This document shows, one piece after another, positions 1 to 18,866 of a stretch of 35,809 nt of DNA; positions within the stretch are counted from its first letter, which is position 1; every line of letters starts with the position of its first letter. Source of the stretch: a virus; IMG/VR virus record IMGVR_UViG_3300028027_000129, positions 1-35,809 of that record; one strand, 5' to 3'. A model generated the notes under the pieces. The model was not told the origin of the DNA, did no database searches, and worked only from the letters and a program-made list of their open reading frames with translations. The position numbers and the translations under genes are program-made.

Positions 1-21
1 GATATAGACTTTCCTGCGTAA
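1..21 (+). CDS. Possible 3' end of a rightward gene
   Basis: Frame 1 reads six codons and a TAA before the bidirectional terminator at 31-76. Frame 2 stops at once and frame 3 runs into the terminator stem, so frame 1 is the natural candidate for a gene entering from the left. A bidirectional terminator between convergent genes is consistent with this. Nothing can be said about function. Confidence 0.25.
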   Translation, partial: DIDFPA

Positions 22-76: not shown

Positions 77-143
77 ATTTTTAGGGCAAGCGCAAAAATG
101 GTTTTTAATTTCGGCGCAAAATAGAGGCTAACAAACCAATACA

Positions 144-158
144 AGCCCGACACGGGCT
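144..158. repeat. GCCCG/CGGGC hairpin downstream of the leftward operon
   Basis: AGCCCG-ACA-CGGGCT forms a perfect 6-bp stem with a 3-nt loop in an AT-rich spacer after the stop of the 204-395 gene. No strong U-tract follows on either strand. The stem core GCCCG/CGGGC recurs in intergenic hairpins at 10636-10652 and 13465-13481, so it may be the same class of 3' element. Confidence 0.5.
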
Positions 159-203
159 ATAACGGTTCTATCCCAATTATGCGGGGAAGTTAAGATTAAT
201 ATA

Positions 204-395
204 CTATTTACACCTAGTACAATACATAGGGTTTCTCATGTTATCTTCTGAGACCACAAACTTAATGGCACAGTGAGAACACTTTACCTCAAATAGCGAG
301 TATTGCCTCAAAAGCATTTTGTATCTATCAGTATAGTAGAACATAGTTACAAACCATGTTACTGAACAAAAAAATACTACTAATCCTAGCGTCAT
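204..395 (-). CDS. Membrane-anchored zinc-ribbon small protein
   Basis: 63 residues. Residues 2-21 are hydrophobic and form one predicted transmembrane segment, followed by a basic stretch (DRYK..LLRQY). The C-terminal half carries two cysteine pairs, CSHC and CTRC, which look like a zinc ribbon facing the cytoplasm. The start is set by a GAGGAG ribosome-binding site just upstream; that site is itself the end of the preceding 44-residue gene, so the two are probably translationally coupled. Function unknown. Confidence 0.75.
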   Translation of the reverse strand: MTLGLVVFFCSVTWFVTMFYYTDRYKMLLRQYSLFEVKCSHCAIKFVVSEDNMRNPMYCTRCK

Positions 396-397
396 TT

Positions 398-532
398 CTA
401 CTCCTCAAAACTCATCTGTGTTTCCCAAAAATCTTTATTTGGATCAACAATAACTTCATCTACGACATGCTTACAGGCAGAGCAAATGACCAAACCATCA
501 AGGTCAACTTCATATGCGTGATTGCAGTCCAT
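398..532 (-). CDS. Small zinc-finger-like protein, 44 aa
   Basis: 44 residues, MDCNH...ICSACK..., with C3, H5, C17 and C20 as plausible metal ligands and an acidic C-terminal half. No ribosome-binding site is seen. Instead TATACT (539-544, preceded by TG) lies 6 nt before the ATG, which predicts a leaderless mRNA. The stop falls 2 nt before the next ATG (395), and its last codons, GAG GAG, form that gene's ribosome-binding site. No longer in-frame start exists upstream. Function unknown. Confidence 0.65.
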   Translation of the reverse strand: MDCNHAYEVDLDGLVICSACKHVVDEVIVDPNKDFWETQMSFEE

Positions 533-538
533 GTATCC

Positions 539-544
539 AGTATA
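539..544 (-). promoter_or_regulatory. Leaderless-type promoter (-10) for the 44-aa gene
   Basis: TATACT preceded by TGG (extended -10) is separated from the ATG at 532 by 6 nt, so transcription should begin at or next to the start codon. A TTGCCT hexamer lies 17 bp upstream (562-567) as a weak -35. Confidence 0.6.
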
Positions 545-587
545 CCAAACTTCGGCGGGACAGGCAAAGCCAGTATCCCTAGTATAA

Positions 588-668
588 CTAACCCCTATAG
601 AAGATATAAGATGCTAAGGCGATAGCCAGCACATATGGGATAGCGCAGAAAATAAACATATCCATCAT
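588..668 (-). CDS. Single-pass membrane microprotein, 26 aa
   Basis: 26 residues beginning MMDMFIF, hydrophobic almost throughout and ending FYRG, so one transmembrane helix with a basic tail. Its ATG overlaps the stop of the 54-residue gene upstream in a TTATGATG junction, which suggests coupled translation. A second in-frame ATG directly follows the first. Too short for family assignment; kept because of the coupling and the composition. Confidence 0.45.
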   Translation of the reverse strand: MMDMFIFCAIPYVLAIALASYIFYRG

Positions 669-829
669 AATATATAACCCCATAGCCCAGCAATGCCTAA
701 TAGGCCAGAAACCCAAAAGATCCATTTATTCCCTGGCGAAAAACACTCATAGATAGCCAAGATTATTAGCAAACCAGATAAACCAATTAGTCCATATATG
801 AAGTAAATGTATAGAGAAAGTAAGTCCAT
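665..829 (-). CDS. Two-helix small membrane protein, 54 aa
   Basis: 54 residues with two hydrophobic segments (about 2-27 and 36-53) separated by a short loop, YECFSPGNKW. The -10 TATAAT (836-841) lies 6 nt before the ATG, predicting a leaderless transcript. A DnaA box (860-868) overlaps the -35 position and a second box follows at 881-889. The stop overlaps the start of the 26-residue peptide. The hairpin topology is compatible with a holin or a membrane-modifying early protein, but nothing proves this. Confidence 0.6.
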   Translation of the reverse strand: MDLLSLYIYFIYGLIGLSGLLIILAIYECFSPGNKWIFWVSGLLGIAGLWGYIL

Positions 830-835
830 GAGATG

Positions 836-889
836 ATTATACTACTGGTTTGATAAGAGTTATCCACAGGTGTTTGATAGTTATCCACA
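836..889 (-). promoter_or_regulatory. Leaderless-type promoter overlaid by two DnaA boxes
   Basis: TATAAT at 836-841 is followed after 6 nt by the ATG at 829. TTATCCACA occurs at 860-868 and 881-889, spaced 21 bp (two helical turns); the first covers the -35 region. TTATCCACA matches the classical DnaA box (TTATNCACA). Confidence 0.6.
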
Positions 890-891
890 GG

Positions 892-1428
892 TTATGATAT
901 TTGCCAAACCTCTGGATCTTGTGCAATGAGAAACTCTTCAAAAGATTTATTACATAATGCCCATTGGCTTCGATTATTACGAATAAGATCAATGGCTTCA
1001 CGAGCATCCATACCATCACGAATAAGGACTAAGGCTGTGATAAGACCTGATCTATTCCATCCAGCCTGACAACGAATAAGAACTCTTTTGCCCTTCTTCC
1101 AGTCAGAATGAGCAATGCGAACAATGTCAAATAACTCTTCAGTGTTCATTTTATTAATGTCTGAGTCCCAAACACCATAGCGAAACTCTTTTACAAACCA
1201 GTCAACAGGGTTAGAGTAAGCATACATAGTAATAACTGTGTCGAACTGTTCAGTTGTAATCATTGGAACCTTTAGTTGTGTGTTAACATCAAGATCATCT
1301 GTTCCACCTTGCCATAGACCAGGAACTACCTCAGACCATAATGGGTCTATATAGCGTCTTTCAGATTGACCATAATCAGGTCTTTCTAGATCTATCAGAT
1401 TTGTTTTATCTTCCGTTTTTATATCCAT
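892..1428 (-). CDS. Dual-specificity/tyrosine phosphatase-like protein
   Basis: 178 residues. The signature RCQAGWNRSG (C120, R126, S127) matches the C-x5-R phosphate loop of cysteine-dependent phosphatases (family consensus HCxxGxxRS/T), with arginine in place of the usual histidine. The general acid is probably D88 or D90 in the YGVWDSD segment. The N-terminal 30 residues are charged, and SEVVPGLWQGG resembles the opening strand of dual-specificity phosphatase folds. Expected role: hydrolysis of phosphotyrosine/serine or of another phospho-substrate in the host cytoplasm; the substrate cannot be read from the sequence. The promoter is canonical (TTGACA-17-TATACT) with the -10 6 nt before the ATG, so the mRNA should be leaderless. 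Confidence 0.85.
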   Translation of the reverse strand: MDIKTEDKTNLIDLERPDYGQSERRYIDPLWSEVVPGLWQGGTDDLDVNTQLKVPMITTEQFDTVITMYAYSNPVDWFVKEFRYGVWDSDINKMNTEELFDIVRIAHSDWKKGKRVLIRCQAGWNRSGLITALVLIRDGMDAREAIDLIRNNRSQWALCNKSFEEFLIAQDPEVWQIS

Positions 1429-1434
1429 GTTTCA

Positions 1435-1463
1435 AGTATATACCCAGAAAAATAGTCTGTCAA
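1435..1463 (-). promoter_or_regulatory. Canonical sigma-70-type promoter, leaderless start, for the phosphatase
   Basis: Read leftward: TTGACA (1458-1463), 17 bp, TATACT (1435-1440), 6 nt, ATG (1428). Two DnaA boxes, 1470-1478 and 1482-1490, stand directly upstream of the -35. Confidence 0.75.
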
Positions 1464-1490: not shown

Positions 1491-2166
1491 GATAAATCTT
1501 ACTGATATTTTTTAGATATTCTTTGAGTGGAGGAAAGTGGAGTGAAATGGAGTATGGAGCGCTTTTATAGATGGGATCGTAATGTCTTGGGGGCCCCAAA
1601 CCCTACCATACAAACCTTCATATGTCAAACCATCATATCCCGATAGCGGATTATACCTCCAAACCTTGGTTTTGTCAAACCTTTATAGCCAAAAAACCCT
1701 ACAAAAAATGTAGCAAAATGTCCAATAAATCTAGGAAAAACCAGGAAAAAATATATAAAAGGTTTGATAATTTCTAAAAAACCAGGAAAAAAGGTTTGTC
1801 TATTTATTGTGTATTATACTAGGTGAATTTGGTATCATTCGTAATCCCCCGCTAGATCCCGTGGGATCGTAATGTCTGATAAGCCTGTGACTCTGGCCTG
1901 GGGCGGGGGATCAATAAGAGTAATTGACAAACCCTACAGTATAAGATACAATACCAAACCTTTATATCCTGGTTTGACAGATAAGGTTTGATATGCTATG
2001 AATGGGGAAAAGTTTTTTAGGGTTCGTAATGTTTTTTTAGGAAATGAGGTTTGAAGGTTTGTCCATGAATGGGGAAAAATTTGGCTCTATCGTAATAAGT
2101 TTTTAAGGTTTGGTGGTTTGTACGATATGTCCGATTTGTCTATGATCCGGCCCCGCAGGGTTGAGA
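1491..2166. other. Gene-free repeat region; candidate replication origin
   Basis: No credible gene lies here; the short rightward reading frame at 2118-2336 is opposite a real leftward gene. The stretch is AT-rich and holds about 19 copies of AAACC or its complement GGTTT, often extended to CAAACCTT or AGGTTTG. The copies come in alternating blocks: AAACC at about 1599-1690, GGTTT at 1761-1800, AAACC at 1929-1960 and GGTTT at 1971-2120. It also has a 16-bp direct repeat, TGGGATCGTAATGTCT (1572-1587 and 1862-1877), two ATGAATGGGGAAAA repeats (1998-2011 and 2065-2078) and a GC-rich nested inverted repeat at 1844-1911. Together with the DnaA boxes to its left this resembles an iteron-type origin. 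Confidence 0.5.
1844..1911. repeat. GC-rich nested inverted repeat
   Basis: ATCCCCCGC (1844-1852) pairs with GCGGGGGAT (1903-1911). Inside it, GATCCC (1855-1860) and GGGATC (1863-1868) form a second palindrome around 2 nt. It is a 68-nt GC-rich island in an AT-rich region: a possible cruciform, structured RNA or protein-binding site. It has no T-arm or other tRNA feature. Confidence 0.5.
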
Positions 2167-2424
2167 TTATCCAGCCGCAGCCAAAACCTCATCAAGACTT
2201 TCAAAACCTTCGTCATCAAGATTTAGAGAAGCCAAGAACAGTTGCCAAGTTTCAGCAATATATTTTTCTCCGTCACCAGTTACATTACAGAGATTTTCTT
2301 TTTCTAGGTAAGCAAGTGGCAAACCTAAGTCATTGAATTCTATGAACTCATTGAAACCTGGGTCTTCTCTGTATTCAGAATAAAGTTGTCCCAAGATATT
2401 GCATATGTTAGAAAAGTCGGTCAT
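2167..2424 (-). CDS. Hypothetical acidic protein, 85 aa
   Basis: 85 residues, strongly acidic (EYREDPGFNEF, LDDEGFESLDEVL), predicted mostly helical, with no recognised motif. Its ATG lies inside the end of the 77-residue gene upstream (17-nt overlap), so translation is probably coupled. It is the last gene of a leftward transcript before the gene-free repeat region. Function unknown. Confidence 0.65.
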   Translation of the reverse strand: MTDFSNICNILGQLYSEYREDPGFNEFIEFNDLGLPLAYLEKENLCNVTGDGEKYIAETWQLFLASLNLDDEGFESLDEVLAAAG

Positions 2425-6490: not shown

Positions 6491-7513
6491 TTATGCGAGA
6501 GACATTACGCCTTGCACAATTTTTAGTAAGCGATTTTTTTCTGCGTTGATTGCAGGGTCAAATCCACTTGCACTTGCAAGGATAGATTCGTTAGAACCAC
6601 CACGAGCAGAGCGATACCAGTCAAGGCGTTCAGTAAGTGCATTGAAAGCACCCCACGCATTGCCAGCAATCATGCCATTGAATTCACCTGTGTAAATATC
6701 GTTGATTACATCAACTTTATTTTCCCACTTCTTTACCGCACCCTTAGAATCTTTTTCTGGCTTAGGATATGCAGCAAGAATGATTTTGTTGAAATCAGTC
6801 GCATTTACTTCCTTCTCAATCATTGCCTTAGCCATGATATCAAATTCGTCCATGTAAGCATTAGCAAGACCAAGAGTCTCACGAGCAATCTGCACTTTAC
6901 CATTTGCAGTTTGTGTGTGGCGAATCTTGAATGATTGCTTGATACCCTTGTTTTTCTTACGACCTACGCCACCGAGAGCAAGGTTGAGAGTATTAGCGCA
7001 CACTACACGAACGGGTGTAATGCTTGCCTGAATAGCGATTGAGCCGTCATGTGATGTGTTGATAAGCAAATAAGTTTTTACCTTATCACTTACGCCGTTA
7101 GGGTCTAGGATTGTTTCACGCTCTAGTGCAAGCGCACCGAATACAACACGCCCACCCTTGATTGAGCCAGCAGTTTCCCAACGACCACCGCCGTCAAGAA
7201 TGTTATCACCGAATGAAAATAAATCCTCATTCTGTAAAACATGGTAACGCTCACCAACTACACCAAGAATATCGGTTTGAGTGTTGTCGGTAGGATTGGT
7301 ACGCAAGACATATTGGTATGCCTTGTCGCTTGTGAGATGTGATGGGGTTTCCAAATCCTCAAGACGAACATTCCAACCGTCAAGATTTGCTAGTGATAGC
7401 ATTTCTGATGTTGTTTTTTCCTCTGTGAATACGGTACCCAATCCATGCCATGCAGGTTCACGGAAAGATGCAAAAGATGTTTTTCCGTTTTGTGTTTCTA
7501 GGTCATGTGCCAT
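6491..7513 (-). CDS. DUF932 family phage/plasmid-like protein
   Basis: 340 residues from MAHDLETQNGKTSF. The opening AWHGLGTVF, the central GERYHVLQNEDLF, and VRVVCANTLNLAL are hallmarks of DUF932 (TIGR03299, phage/plasmid-like protein). The family is common on phages and conjugative plasmids; its biochemical role is not established, though early-gene position suggests DNA metabolism or host takeover. Length is normal. The frame stays open 20 codons upstream, but AAAGGAAAAACTC before the ATG at 7513 fixes the start. It has its own regulated promoter (7545-7640), and the tRNA-Asp lies downstream. Confidence 0.92.
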   Translation of the reverse strand: MAHDLETQNGKTSFASFREPAWHGLGTVFTEEKTTSEMLSLANLDGWNVRLEDLETPSHLTSDKAYQYVLRTNPTDNTQTDILGVVGERYHVLQNEDLFSFGDNILDGGGRWETAGSIKGGRVVFGALALERETILDPNGVSDKVKTYLLINTSHDGSIAIQASITPVRVVCANTLNLALGGVGRKKNKGIKQSFKIRHTQTANGKVQIARETLGLANAYMDEFDIMAKAMIEKEVNATDFNKIILAAYPKPEKDSKGAVKKWENKVDVINDIYTGEFNGMIAGNAWGAFNALTERLDWYRSARGGSNESILASASGFDPAINAEKNRLLKIVQGVMSLA

Positions 7514-7544
7514 GAGTTTTTCCTTTTCTGTTGTTGTTAATCTA

Positions 7545-7670
7545 ATCATACACCTAGCCACCGACAAAAGCAAATCAGGCTAGTTAGATATGGGGCAATT
7601 CGGACATTTTTATAATGTGTCGTAATTCACACGGCGTGTCGCTTGACAAGATCAAGTTTTGCGGGCCGGG
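7545..7670 (-). promoter_or_regulatory. Regulatory cassette driving DUF932
   Basis: In transcription order: GCCGGG core (7665-7670), octamer GACACGCC (7633-7640 on the minus strand), imperfect palindrome TGTGT-CGTAAT-TCACA (7616-7631), ATGTCCG (7601-7607), GTCGGT (7560-7565), 9 bp, TATGAT (7545-7550). All are members of the repeated cassette set described in the findings. Confidence 0.65.
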
Positions 7671-8472: not shown

Positions 8473-8898
8473 TTATAGGTAGCGAGCCACCGCATTGTAT
8501 GTAGAAGTATTTACAACTTCCTCATCTGTCATCTTTAGAATACGAATTGCGTTTGACAATTCCTCTTTCTGATTGCGATATTCGTGTGTAGCAATTTGCT
8601 CAAAGTCACGCTCAGGTGATTTAGGCAATTCTGACTCTGATACTGTTAGGTCAAAGTCAATGTTTAGTTGATTATTCCATGAGCGATAAGAAGTACGGAA
8701 GTTCTCTGCCTTCTTGATATTAGCGGTTGCGTAGGCAATAAGTTCCTTCTTATACTTTTCTTGTAACTTTTGGAACTTTGCTTCGTTGGCTTCCTGTGAT
8801 ATGTAATCTGACTCTAACTTTGCTAATGCAGTTTCTAGTGCTTTGATTACCTTTACTGTTGCAATTTTTACTGATATTGCTTTACCTTTTGTTGCCAT
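8473..8898 (-). CDS. Conserved helical phage protein, 141 aa
   Basis: 141 residues, basic N-terminus (MATKGKAISVKIATVKVIKA), then long helices rich in Lys and Glu (EANEAKFQKLQEKYKKELI) predicted as coiled coil, and a C-terminal helical segment. No cysteines or catalytic motif. It resembles small helical proteins frequent in actinophage early regions (recalled, function unassigned). AAGAGA precedes the ATG. Promoter: GTCAGA, 9 bp, TATAAT. Confidence 0.75.
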   Translation of the reverse strand: MATKGKAISVKIATVKVIKALETALAKLESDYISQEANEAKFQKLQEKYKKELIAYATANIKKAENFRTSYRSWNNQLNIDFDLTVSESELPKSPERDFEQIATHEYRNQKEELSNAIRILKMTDEEVVNTSTYNAVARYL

Positions 8899-9692: not shown

Positions 9693-10415
9693 TTATTTCT
9701 TAGTTGCAGAGAATACAATATCCGCTTTATTGAATACACACAGTGAACACGATACACATGCGGACCCTGCATTGCTAATAAGTGGAATGGCTTTTAGGTT
9801 TTCAGGACACTTAGCACCTGGTTTATTTGTTAGGGCCTTCATGTCTGCTTGACCTTCTGCAAAGTTTTTAGCAAGATATGCCAATTTGATTCCATGCTCA
9901 GTTTTTAGTCCAATACCAATTGCCTTATTCTCACTATCAGTAGAATAATATAGTGAGAGATTAGGCTGGTCCTTTAGCATAAGCGCTGCACTTTCAACAC
10001 GTGTATATACCCAGAATTGTACATGGCGAAAGTCCATGATAATTTGCTTCCATGCATACGCATATGTATCATTAAAGAAATCCCCGTCCCAGTGGATACG
10101 GAATAATTGTGGTGCATTTTTCTTTCCACAATCTTTAACAAAATCAATCATCATCTCTTTAAGTAGTGCGACCATGGTTTCATAGTCTGCGTCTTTAAGT
10201 AGGTTCCAATTATGAAGTAGGTTAACTTTTACGGTTGGGAATATTTTTTCCAATTTGCCTGCATAGCAAACAGTCTCACAGACAGTCGTTGCGCCAGGAC
10301 ATGAATAGTTTTTTCCTGCGGGTAGTCCGAAGGTATTCGCAATGCTTGCTTGCTTTCCATTAGGTGTAACAAGGTTAGCCACCTTTCTATCTTTAGAGCG
10401 TTTTAGTTGGGTCAT
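9693..10415 (-). CDS. GP88 domain protein
   Basis: 240 residues from MTQLKRSKDRKVANL. Features of the phage gene-product-88 family: NTFGLPAG-x-YSCPGATTVCETVCYAGKL near the N-terminus, FRIHWDGDFF and VQFWVYTRV in the middle, and a C-terminal cluster, GSACVSCSLC. The conserved cysteines (three near the N-terminus, three near the C-terminus) suggest metal or Fe-S binding; no enzymatic activity is established for the family. An in-frame GTG (10427) lies upstream, but AAAGTGAG spaced before the ATG at 10415 fits better and matches the gene at 13235. Starts 4 nt after the 48-residue gene. Confidence 0.88.
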   Translation of the reverse strand: MTQLKRSKDRKVANLVTPNGKQASIANTFGLPAGKNYSCPGATTVCETVCYAGKLEKIFPTVKVNLLHNWNLLKDADYETMVALLKEMMIDFVKDCGKKNAPQLFRIHWDGDFFNDTYAYAWKQIIMDFRHVQFWVYTRVESAALMLKDQPNLSLYYSTDSENKAIGIGLKTEHGIKLAYLAKNFAEGQADMKALTNKPGAKCPENLKAIPLISNAGSACVSCSLCVFNKADIVFSATKK

Positions 10416-10419
10416 CGAA

Positions 10420-10566
10420 TTACTCACTTTCTTTTTTCAATTCTAGCATTAGGGACTGACTTTTCTTACCCTTGCGAGAGTAAACTTTTTTAGAAGGCAC
10501 GGCAGAGGCAGCATTAGAACGGCGAAGTTCCATTAGTCTGCGTAATTCCTCTGGTGTTTTTTTCAT
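10420..10566 (-). CDS. Small basic protein, 48 aa
   Basis: 48 residues, MKKTPEELRRLMELRRSNAA..., strongly basic and helical (lysine/arginine runs KKVYSRKGKK), so nucleic-acid binding is plausible. The -10 TAAGAT (10573-10578) is 6 nt before the ATG, predicting a leaderless mRNA, with a perfect CRP-like palindrome upstream. A GTCAGT promoter for GP88 is embedded in its 3' codons. Confidence 0.6.
   Translation of the reverse strand: MKKTPEELRRLMELRRSNAASAVPSKKVYSRKGKKSQSLMLELKKESE
10440..10460 (-). promoter_or_regulatory. GTCAGT-type promoter inside the 48-aa gene, driving GP88
   Basis: GTCAGT (10455-10460), 9 bp ending ATGC, TAGAAT (10440-10445). The ATGC-TAGAAT part is identical to the promoter at 8227-8247. 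Confidence 0.6.
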
Positions 10567-15356: not shown

Positions 15357-15697
15357 ACAGAAAAATCTTGTACTGTCCAGTATACTGGTTGGTAGTCTCA
15401 CTATATGGAGCGTGGGACTTGTGATATAGGTCACTTATTTGCTAGGCTCACCCTAAACTTTAGGTTTACTTGCTAGGCTCATTGACCTGATTTATTACGC
15501 TATTTTATTTTTTCTATACGAGAAGTATAGCATAAAAATATCAAAAAGTCAAGTCCAAACACGGCGTGTCGTATGTGATTTATACCACATAAGATTAGAC
15601 ACGCCCGAGTGCGCCGGGGCGAAAAGTTATCCACATGACGCACATCACACCCAGAATTGAGCGTGAGTTATCCACATGACCTACATCACATTTCAAA

Positions 15698-15751
15698 ATG
15701 TCCGATTTGTGGCATTACTGGTCAGTAAATGTCGTACCCCTCTGTTATACT
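15698..15751 (+). promoter_or_regulatory. Rightward promoter of the cassette family
   Basis: ATGTCCG (15698-15704), GTCAGT (15721-15726), GTCGTA (15731-15736), 9 bp, TATACT (15746-15751) with extended TG. The palindrome-like CATGA-CCTACA-TCACA (15675-15690) is centred 66 bp above the -10 centre, as in the leftward cassettes. Confidence 0.65.
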
Positions 15752-16402: not shown

Positions 16403-16510
16403 GCTATTTTATTTTTTATTATGTGTATCGTACATCTCAGAAAAATATTCAGATTTTGGTAAAAGTGGTTTTTTATAATTTTTCAGATTTTCCAGGGGAT
16501 AGGAATAAGG

Positions 16511-18122: not shown

Positions 18123-18866
18123 GTGGCCATATCAAAAAATATGGATGCTCCAAAGACAAAATATGCGGAAGCAATTAAGTCAACTAAAAGTGAAGAACTA
18201 AGTAATACTGAATATATTGCTGTTCCAGGAATTCAGGGTGAACGAGGCGAAGTAGGTCCAGCAGGACCACCAGGACCAGAAGGACCAAGGGGCGAAAGAG
18301 GTATTCCAGGCAAAGATGGTAAAGATGGCATTCCTGGGCCACAAGGACCTAAAGGAGATCCTGGCAGAGGCGGGGGAGAAGGATATGAGAGTCCTTCAGG
18401 TCAATATCCAGGATGGGCATATTATCAGAATAAAAATAAAAAACCAATCTTGCTAGGTCCTGAAAGAGGAGATGATGGTTGGGTAAATATTTTAATGGAT
18501 GACGATATGGATAGTAATATTTTGAAATTTCTTCCAGAAGGATCAGTATCTCTTTGGAATTCAGTTACTCAGAGAATTAATTTTAAGCAATTAAAGGTGG
18601 GTGCTAGAGTTGACATTAGGTATGACATAGCCCTTACTACTGATACAAACAGTACAGAAGCATGGATTAGAACATATATACCAAAGGTGGAATCTCCAAC
18701 TGGATACCTAGGAATGCTTAAATATAAGTATCCATATGAAATGTCTGTTAGTCAAACCCTATATGTTGACTTGTCAAAAATTAGATCAGAAGGTGCAGTC
18801 ATTCAGGCAAGAGCAGATAATGAAAGTACCATTATACTAAAGGGCATGTATATATCAGTCTCTTAG
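18123..18866 (+). CDS. Collagen-like tail fibre protein, 247 aa
   Basis: 247 residues, GTG start with AAAGAG upstream. Residues 36-83 are about 16 collagen Gly-X-Y triplets ([16 protein letters not shown]), which should form a trimeric stalk. The C-terminal 150 residues are a beta-rich globular head ([20 protein letters not shown]...). N-terminal 30 residues probably attach to the tail. Expected role: adsorption fibre. Confidence 0.8.

Follow-up and report, generated by a model that had tools for sequence, protein, structure and literature searches.

The DNA analysed was a stretch of 35,809 nt (35.8 kb) of an IMG/VR virus record (IMGVR_UViG_3300028027_000129), here called the window. The left arm of the window (to ~17 kb) was coded leftward and the remainder rightward, the latter including structural genes, a portal and a ribonucleotide reductase. 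A protein coded beside the structural genes (18123-18866) carried collagen-like Gly-X-Y repeats. As a first-pass annotation of the window had stated, its longest gene-free stretch lay near the left end: 1429-2166 was the longest interval for which the ORF list has no coding-strand ORF of 60 aa or more. It was flanked by a dual-specificity-phosphatase-like gene on the left (PF00782; 892-1428, minus strand) and by a conserved, uncharacterised gene on the right (2167-2424, minus strand). A DUF932 gene (6491-7573) and a GP88-family gene (9693-10427), both on the minus strand, were also found in the left arm.

Near relatives were collected from IMG/VR via the DUF932 gene. Hundreds were found and 80 were retained as loci, on contigs of up to 119 kb. 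The repeat-bearing intergenic region, here called the field, was conserved in at least 84 distinct sequences of freshwater phages, so that the conservation in relatives proposed as a check in the first-pass annotation was borne out. The field set comprised 84 distinct full-length fields, the alignment 48 relatives, and six near-complete relatives (G001-G006) were used for genome-wide comparisons. The right neighbour was present in 68 of the 80 loci and the phosphatase-like gene in a single one, thus the module is not the promoter of one gene. A plain upstream region of the phosphatase gene was ruled out, as that gene was missing from 79 of the 80 relatives.

The relatives are freshwater phages, probably with actinobacterial hosts, since related terminases came mostly from Streptomyces and Gordonia phages. 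One relative (G002, L090-L092) coded a cytochrome P450, a carbamoyltransferase, 2OG-Fe(II) oxygenases, a sulfotransferase and a TipAS domain. Mimicry of a host oriC was rejected because the module was absent from the genome collection but for one Chitinophagaceae MAG contig. This contig (CANGYR010000020.1), which bears an actinophage module, is probably a mis-binned phage contig.

The CAAACC array and overlapping promoter-like sequences

AAACC/GGTTT was found 19 times in 1491-2166 (spanning 1598-2119), where 1.6 copies were expected from the dinucleotides of the window (Poisson P 1.3e-14). The excess reported in the first-pass annotation, about 19 copies in place of about one, was thus confirmed. 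Shuffles of the region itself (2000) gave a mean of 3.0 and a maximum of 9 copies. CAAACC was a better-fitting word, with 15 copies against 0.37 expected. The array (1597-2120, no strand assigned) read CAAACC at 1597, 1611, 1626, 1660, 1676, 1928 and 1955, and GGTTTG at 1761, 1793, 1971, 1985, 2048, 2056, 2107 and 2115. The alternating orientation blocks described earlier were recovered only as a tendency, with mostly CAAACC in the left half and mostly GGTTTG in the right half, but not as strict blocks. The spacing of the CAAACC copies was irregular and linked to promoters.

The field was the densest AAACC/GGTTT stretch in the window and in each of the six near-complete relatives, with one such stretch per genome. 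Other intergenic regions of the six relatives had 0.6-1.25 copies per kb, near background, compared with 0.6-1.0 in coding DNA. An equal density in other spacers, which the first-pass annotation had named as evidence against its reading, was therefore not seen. For the same reason, background level outside the field, CAAACC was ruled out as a genome-wide promoter element. In the stretch fetched from a distant relative, DSL-LC01, the field was absent.

In one relative (L135) the word read CAAACA, with 18 copies and zero CAAACC, while the promoter hexamers TTGACA/TATAAT were kept. Such a concerted change is the pattern expected of a multi-copy site for a co-evolving binding protein. The repeat word was also switched in the fields of L124 and L160/L189 (variants CAAATT and CAAATA).

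Promoter-like sequences were defined as having at most two mismatches to TTGACA-16..18-TATAAT, with Markov shuffles as control. A leftward consensus promoter (TTGACA-17-TATAAT) was predicted at 1650-1678 on the minus strand, with CAAACC over its -35 and spacer. Two rightward promoter-like sequences followed on the plus strand, at 1924-1952 (TTGACA-17-TACAAT) and 1974-2002 (TTGACA-17-TATGAA), and a further predicted promoter (TTGACA-17-TATACT; 1435-1463, minus strand) lay just ahead of the left-hand gene. Taking the second DnaA box described below as zero, leftward promoters at +100..260 were found in 82 of the 84 fields (8.6% of shuffles) and rightward promoters at +380..900 in 70 of 84 (16% of shuffles). 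The rightward promoter reads antisense to conserved genes. Since CAAACC overlaps the -35 and spacer of predicted sigma70 promoters, the AAACC words look like operators of a phage regulator. A structured RNA was rejected, as Rfam gave only the tRNA and the fold of eight aligned leftward leaders was without compensatory change.

DnaA boxes, GTGGAG repeats and TTCGTAA elements

The first-pass annotation had placed four DnaA boxes next to the repeats. All four were exact copies of TTATCCACA, but only those at 1470-1478 (box 1) and 1482-1490 (box 2), both on the plus strand, touch the field; those at 860 and 881 lie about 600 b away. Box 2 was taken as the reference point (D2 = 0). Another exact box, 11-12 b ahead of D2 and on the same strand, was present in 76 of the 84 distinct fields. 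Adjoining box 2, the alignment of 48 relatives showed a conserved ATCTTACTGAT (1496-1506, plus strand), and the 9-mer ATCTTACTG was ~880-fold enriched in fields.

Three further feature classes had been overlooked in the first pass, namely the promoters, a series of GTGGAG repeats with ~10-b pitch, and five same-strand TCGTAAT copies in the field. The GTGGAG/ATGGAG repeats of the window (1527-1559, plus strand) lie at +45, +55, +65 and +72 from D2. GTGGAG was at +47/+57/+67 in 58 of the 84 fields, eight of these having a fourth copy at +74, and at 45/55/65 in window-type fields. TCGTAAT occurred 14 times in the window, where 3 copies were expected. The first TTCGTAA-type element (T1; TCGTAAT, 1577-1583, plus strand) corresponds to a TCGTAA at +95..98 from D2 in 76 of the 84 fields. 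In the relatives, the series from D2 thus ran through GTGGAG at +47/+57/+67 and a predicted cut at ~+77 to TTCGTAAT at +95..98, with rigid spacing. Elements 2 and 3 (1839 and 1867; 1839-1873) and elements 4 and 5 (2024 and 2090; 2024-2096), the latter two preceded by GGGGAAAA..TTT, were also on the plus strand. The TTCGTAA elements were one-way and repeated, and near the predicted cut TCGTAAT, GTGGAG and the DnaA boxes each kept one orientation.

Elsewhere in the window, the intergenic region 15400-15700 contained exact DnaA boxes at 15627 and 15668, CRP-like TGTGA..TCACA palindromes and the words GGCGTGTCG/GACACGCC. Blocks similar to it recurred in other intergenic regions of the relatives.

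Comparison with mapped phage termini

Ends of BE1 phages have been defined by a pile-up of read starts together with doubled coverage (PMC5764925). We examined six Boydwoodruffvirinae phages of Streptomyces cluster BE (EGole, LilMartin, LukeCage, Genie2, Jay2Jay and Targaryen), whose direct terminal repeats (DTRs) are 11-12 kb long. In EGole the repeat measures 11341 b: base 1 of the record reappears at 124313, and the copy is identical up to the end. The repeat computed for Jay2Jay was 11438 b, identical throughout, whereas 10,778 is given in the table of the BE1 paper (PMC5764925). The large terminase of G002, whose gene falls outside the window, was 55% identical to BE terminases over 100% of its length. 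Each of the six BE phages also had homologues of DUF932 and GP88 inside its DTR, with the order and strand of the window genes.

Upstream of the DTR start, every one of the six had TTATCCACA at -93 (-94 in EGole) and TGTGGATAA at -71 or -69, and the cut sequence was ...GTGTAATG^G (TAATG^G, the caret marking the cut). Several GGAAA..TTCGTAAAG copies (TTCGTAA elements) followed on one strand within 700 b after the cut, and LilMartin and LukeCage had TCGTAA at +21/22 of the DTR. BE phages and the freshwater relatives thus share two DnaA boxes at a fixed distance before the cut, which in the relatives lie at about -88 and -77 of the predicted cut. However, the BE boxes are inverted whereas the freshwater boxes are direct, and the BE field is without the GTGGAG triplet, the CAAACC array and near-consensus sigma70 promoters, its enriched short words being CTATATACA and GTCTTATAT. 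BLAST gave no alignment between BE and freshwater termini at significant E-values, and the link consists of motif order and spacing.

One relative (L187) had an exact copy of the BE pre-cut sequence GATAGTGTGTAATGG where the cut is predicted, its boxes lying at -88 and -76. In G001-G003 the pre-cut motif (ATAGTG...TAATG^G) was present at the predicted cut within two mismatches; about ten loose matches were found per genome, and DnaA boxes lay upstream only of the one at the predicted cut. In G004-G006 no pre-cut match within two mismatches was found at the site, where the placement rests on spacing. The window's own copy was degenerate. Because the order and distances of the series are near those of BE, the match in L187 is exact and the matches in G001-G003 are accompanied by boxes, we predict the left DTR end of the window, a terminase cut with no strand assigned, near the junction of 1556 and 1557. 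This placement draws on spacing and motif homology with the six BE termini and L187.

No right end of the DTR was found within the window. A TGTATCGTAC at 16424, resembling the BE right end (GCATGTAT^CGTAC), was dropped as it recurred in none of the six relatives. Contig ends near the site were likewise no more than suggestive and were not taken as proof: five fell at +3..+36 from the predicted cut and another four at +553..577. The assemblies of the freshwater relatives collapse any DTR. In the satellite phage Mulchroom (L267), which has its own terminase genes, the DTR begins (1-30) with ATGGGGTATCTCGTGTGCATTCGTAAG (ATGGGGTAT...TTCGTAAG). This start resembles that of LilMartin, a close relative of Mulchroom's helper, while that of MiniFlayer does not.

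In Jada (Streptomyces cluster BK, Loccivirinae) the arrangement was different. BK phages resemble BE in the pre-cut GATAG...TAATA^G, and the DTR of Jada starts ...GATAGAGTGAGAGGGTAATA^G. They resemble the field in having a cluster of DnaA boxes with TTCGTAA elements within ~1 kb. In Jada, however, the DTR is short (766 b), no DnaA box is near its start, and the DnaA/TTCGTAA unit is ~6 kb from the terminus: the boxes are 6.3 kb left of the DTR start and the TTCGTAA elements ~1 kb beyond the boxes. In other BK phages the box segment was similarly far from the end of the record. The boxes and TTCGTAA elements are thus not required for terminase cutting in Jada, and the two travel together, separable from the terminase site. 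An intergenic segment of ~42 b by the BK DnaA boxes (L271, 16673-16714) was 93-98% identical to one in WheeHeim and Forthebois, which are 18-kb Streptomyces phages.

A predicted genome-end region and competing readings

The field is most likely a conserved composite genome-end region. More specifically, we consider it probable that a long DTR in an actinobacterial phage of ~110-120 kb has its left boundary here, with a predicted cut and operator-covered promoters. This reading is favoured because collinearity with the mapped BE termini is the strongest independent evidence. On the unique side of the boundary would lie the DnaA-box pair and then three to four GTGGAG copies with ~10-b pitch, up to the predicted cut; on the DTR side would lie the same-orientation GGAAA..TTCGTAA elements and a promoter cluster covered by CAAACC. 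The terminase may recognise the GTGGAG series and cut close to where it ends, so that the TTCGTAA/CAAACC part would form the left tip of the linear genome and be present a second time at the right-hand repeat. Leftward promoters there would drive the variable genes that run leftward beyond the repeat, and rightward promoters would read inward, antisense to the genes of the repeat, both presumably regulated by a phage protein binding CAAACC. DnaA could have one of two roles, opening or loading an origin next to the cut or acting as an architectural cofactor.

A long-DTR left terminus with DnaA boxes and TTCGTAA elements can already be seen in BE phages, and the freshwater field would be a variant of it. 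What the present comparison of sequences adds is the conserved anatomy, the promoter-like sequences and the collinearity with the mapped termini of terminase-sharing phages. Little is known of how the genomes of uncultured freshwater phages begin, replicate and get packaged, and existing virome reads would allow a check of the genome end predicted here at base level. A more far-reaching and improbable reading is that host DnaA, bound at a set distance from the terminase cut, takes a working part in forming the genome ends and couples the start of replication to packaging or to the first entry of DNA, in two separate lineages of actinophages. The box-to-cut distance is fixed in two lineages and lost in a third, so a role of DnaA in end formation versus an adjacent origin is testable in cultured Streptomyces phages.

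The first-pass annotation had proposed the field as a candidate origin. Part of this proposal stood, since the field is a conserved cis-acting element, present once per genome and equipped with DnaA boxes, which makes a replication origin there possible; the AAACC words, however, sit over sigma70 promoters and are operator-like. If replication were the primary function, host DnaA would act on the boxes and a phage initiator on CAAACC/TTCGTAA, with the phage DnaB, primase and pol III then loaded. We regard this as unlikely, though it is the best of the alternatives. Exact DnaA boxes are in excess (6-12 per genome, ~1.5 expected), there is one field per genome, an AT-rich stretch lies around +280..340 of the fields, and a relative codes for a DnaB-type helicase, a DnaG-type primase, DnaE and RecA of its own. 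DnaA boxes are also accompanied by TTCGTAA elements in BK phages, at a distance from the genome end. Such separability is what an origin would show, and the idea was therefore kept as partly supported. Against it, the cumulative GC skew put forward as a check had its turning points elsewhere in the six near-complete relatives, at strand switches, which the first-pass annotation had itself named as contrary evidence; as the skew follows gene direction and is confounded by it, it is silent or mildly contrary. Intergenic regions of these phages outside the field contain DnaA boxes as well, and an origin leaves the collinearity with BE termini unexplained. Iteron-type origins of phages and plasmids, such as P4 ori, lambda ori and P1 oriR, have many short repeats, some with DnaA boxes. 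The field differs from them in the irregular spacing of its short repeats and in the overlap of these with promoters. Within the genome-end reading, the unit of DnaA boxes and TTCGTAA elements may still, on weaker grounds, be a DnaA-assisted replication origin beside the cut.

A transcriptional switch only, that is, a promoter/operator array under a phage protein binding CAAACC, would account for the near-consensus divergent promoters overlapped by this word and for the concerted change of the operator word. It appears highly improbable, as it explains neither the rigid series from DnaA box through GTGGAG to T1 nor the BE collinearity, and has the rightward promoter antisense to conserved genes.

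The T5 injection stop signal has been described as rich in repeats and with DnaA boxes (PMC13250531), and T5 resembles the predicted arrangement in its long DTR (10.2 kb in the record), similar genome size and DnaA boxes, but a T5-like signal at which DNA entry pauses once the first segment is in is the least credible reading, a loose resemblance at best, since the exact T5 boxes are +6.1, +6.2 and +9.5 kb inside the terminal repeat with none at its start, whereas those of the window are ~70-90 b outside the predicted repeat. In the T5 record (L269), DnaA boxes at 8714 and 8726 (+6.18/+6.19 kb; one a relaxed match) form a pair 12 b apart, the same spacing as in the window.
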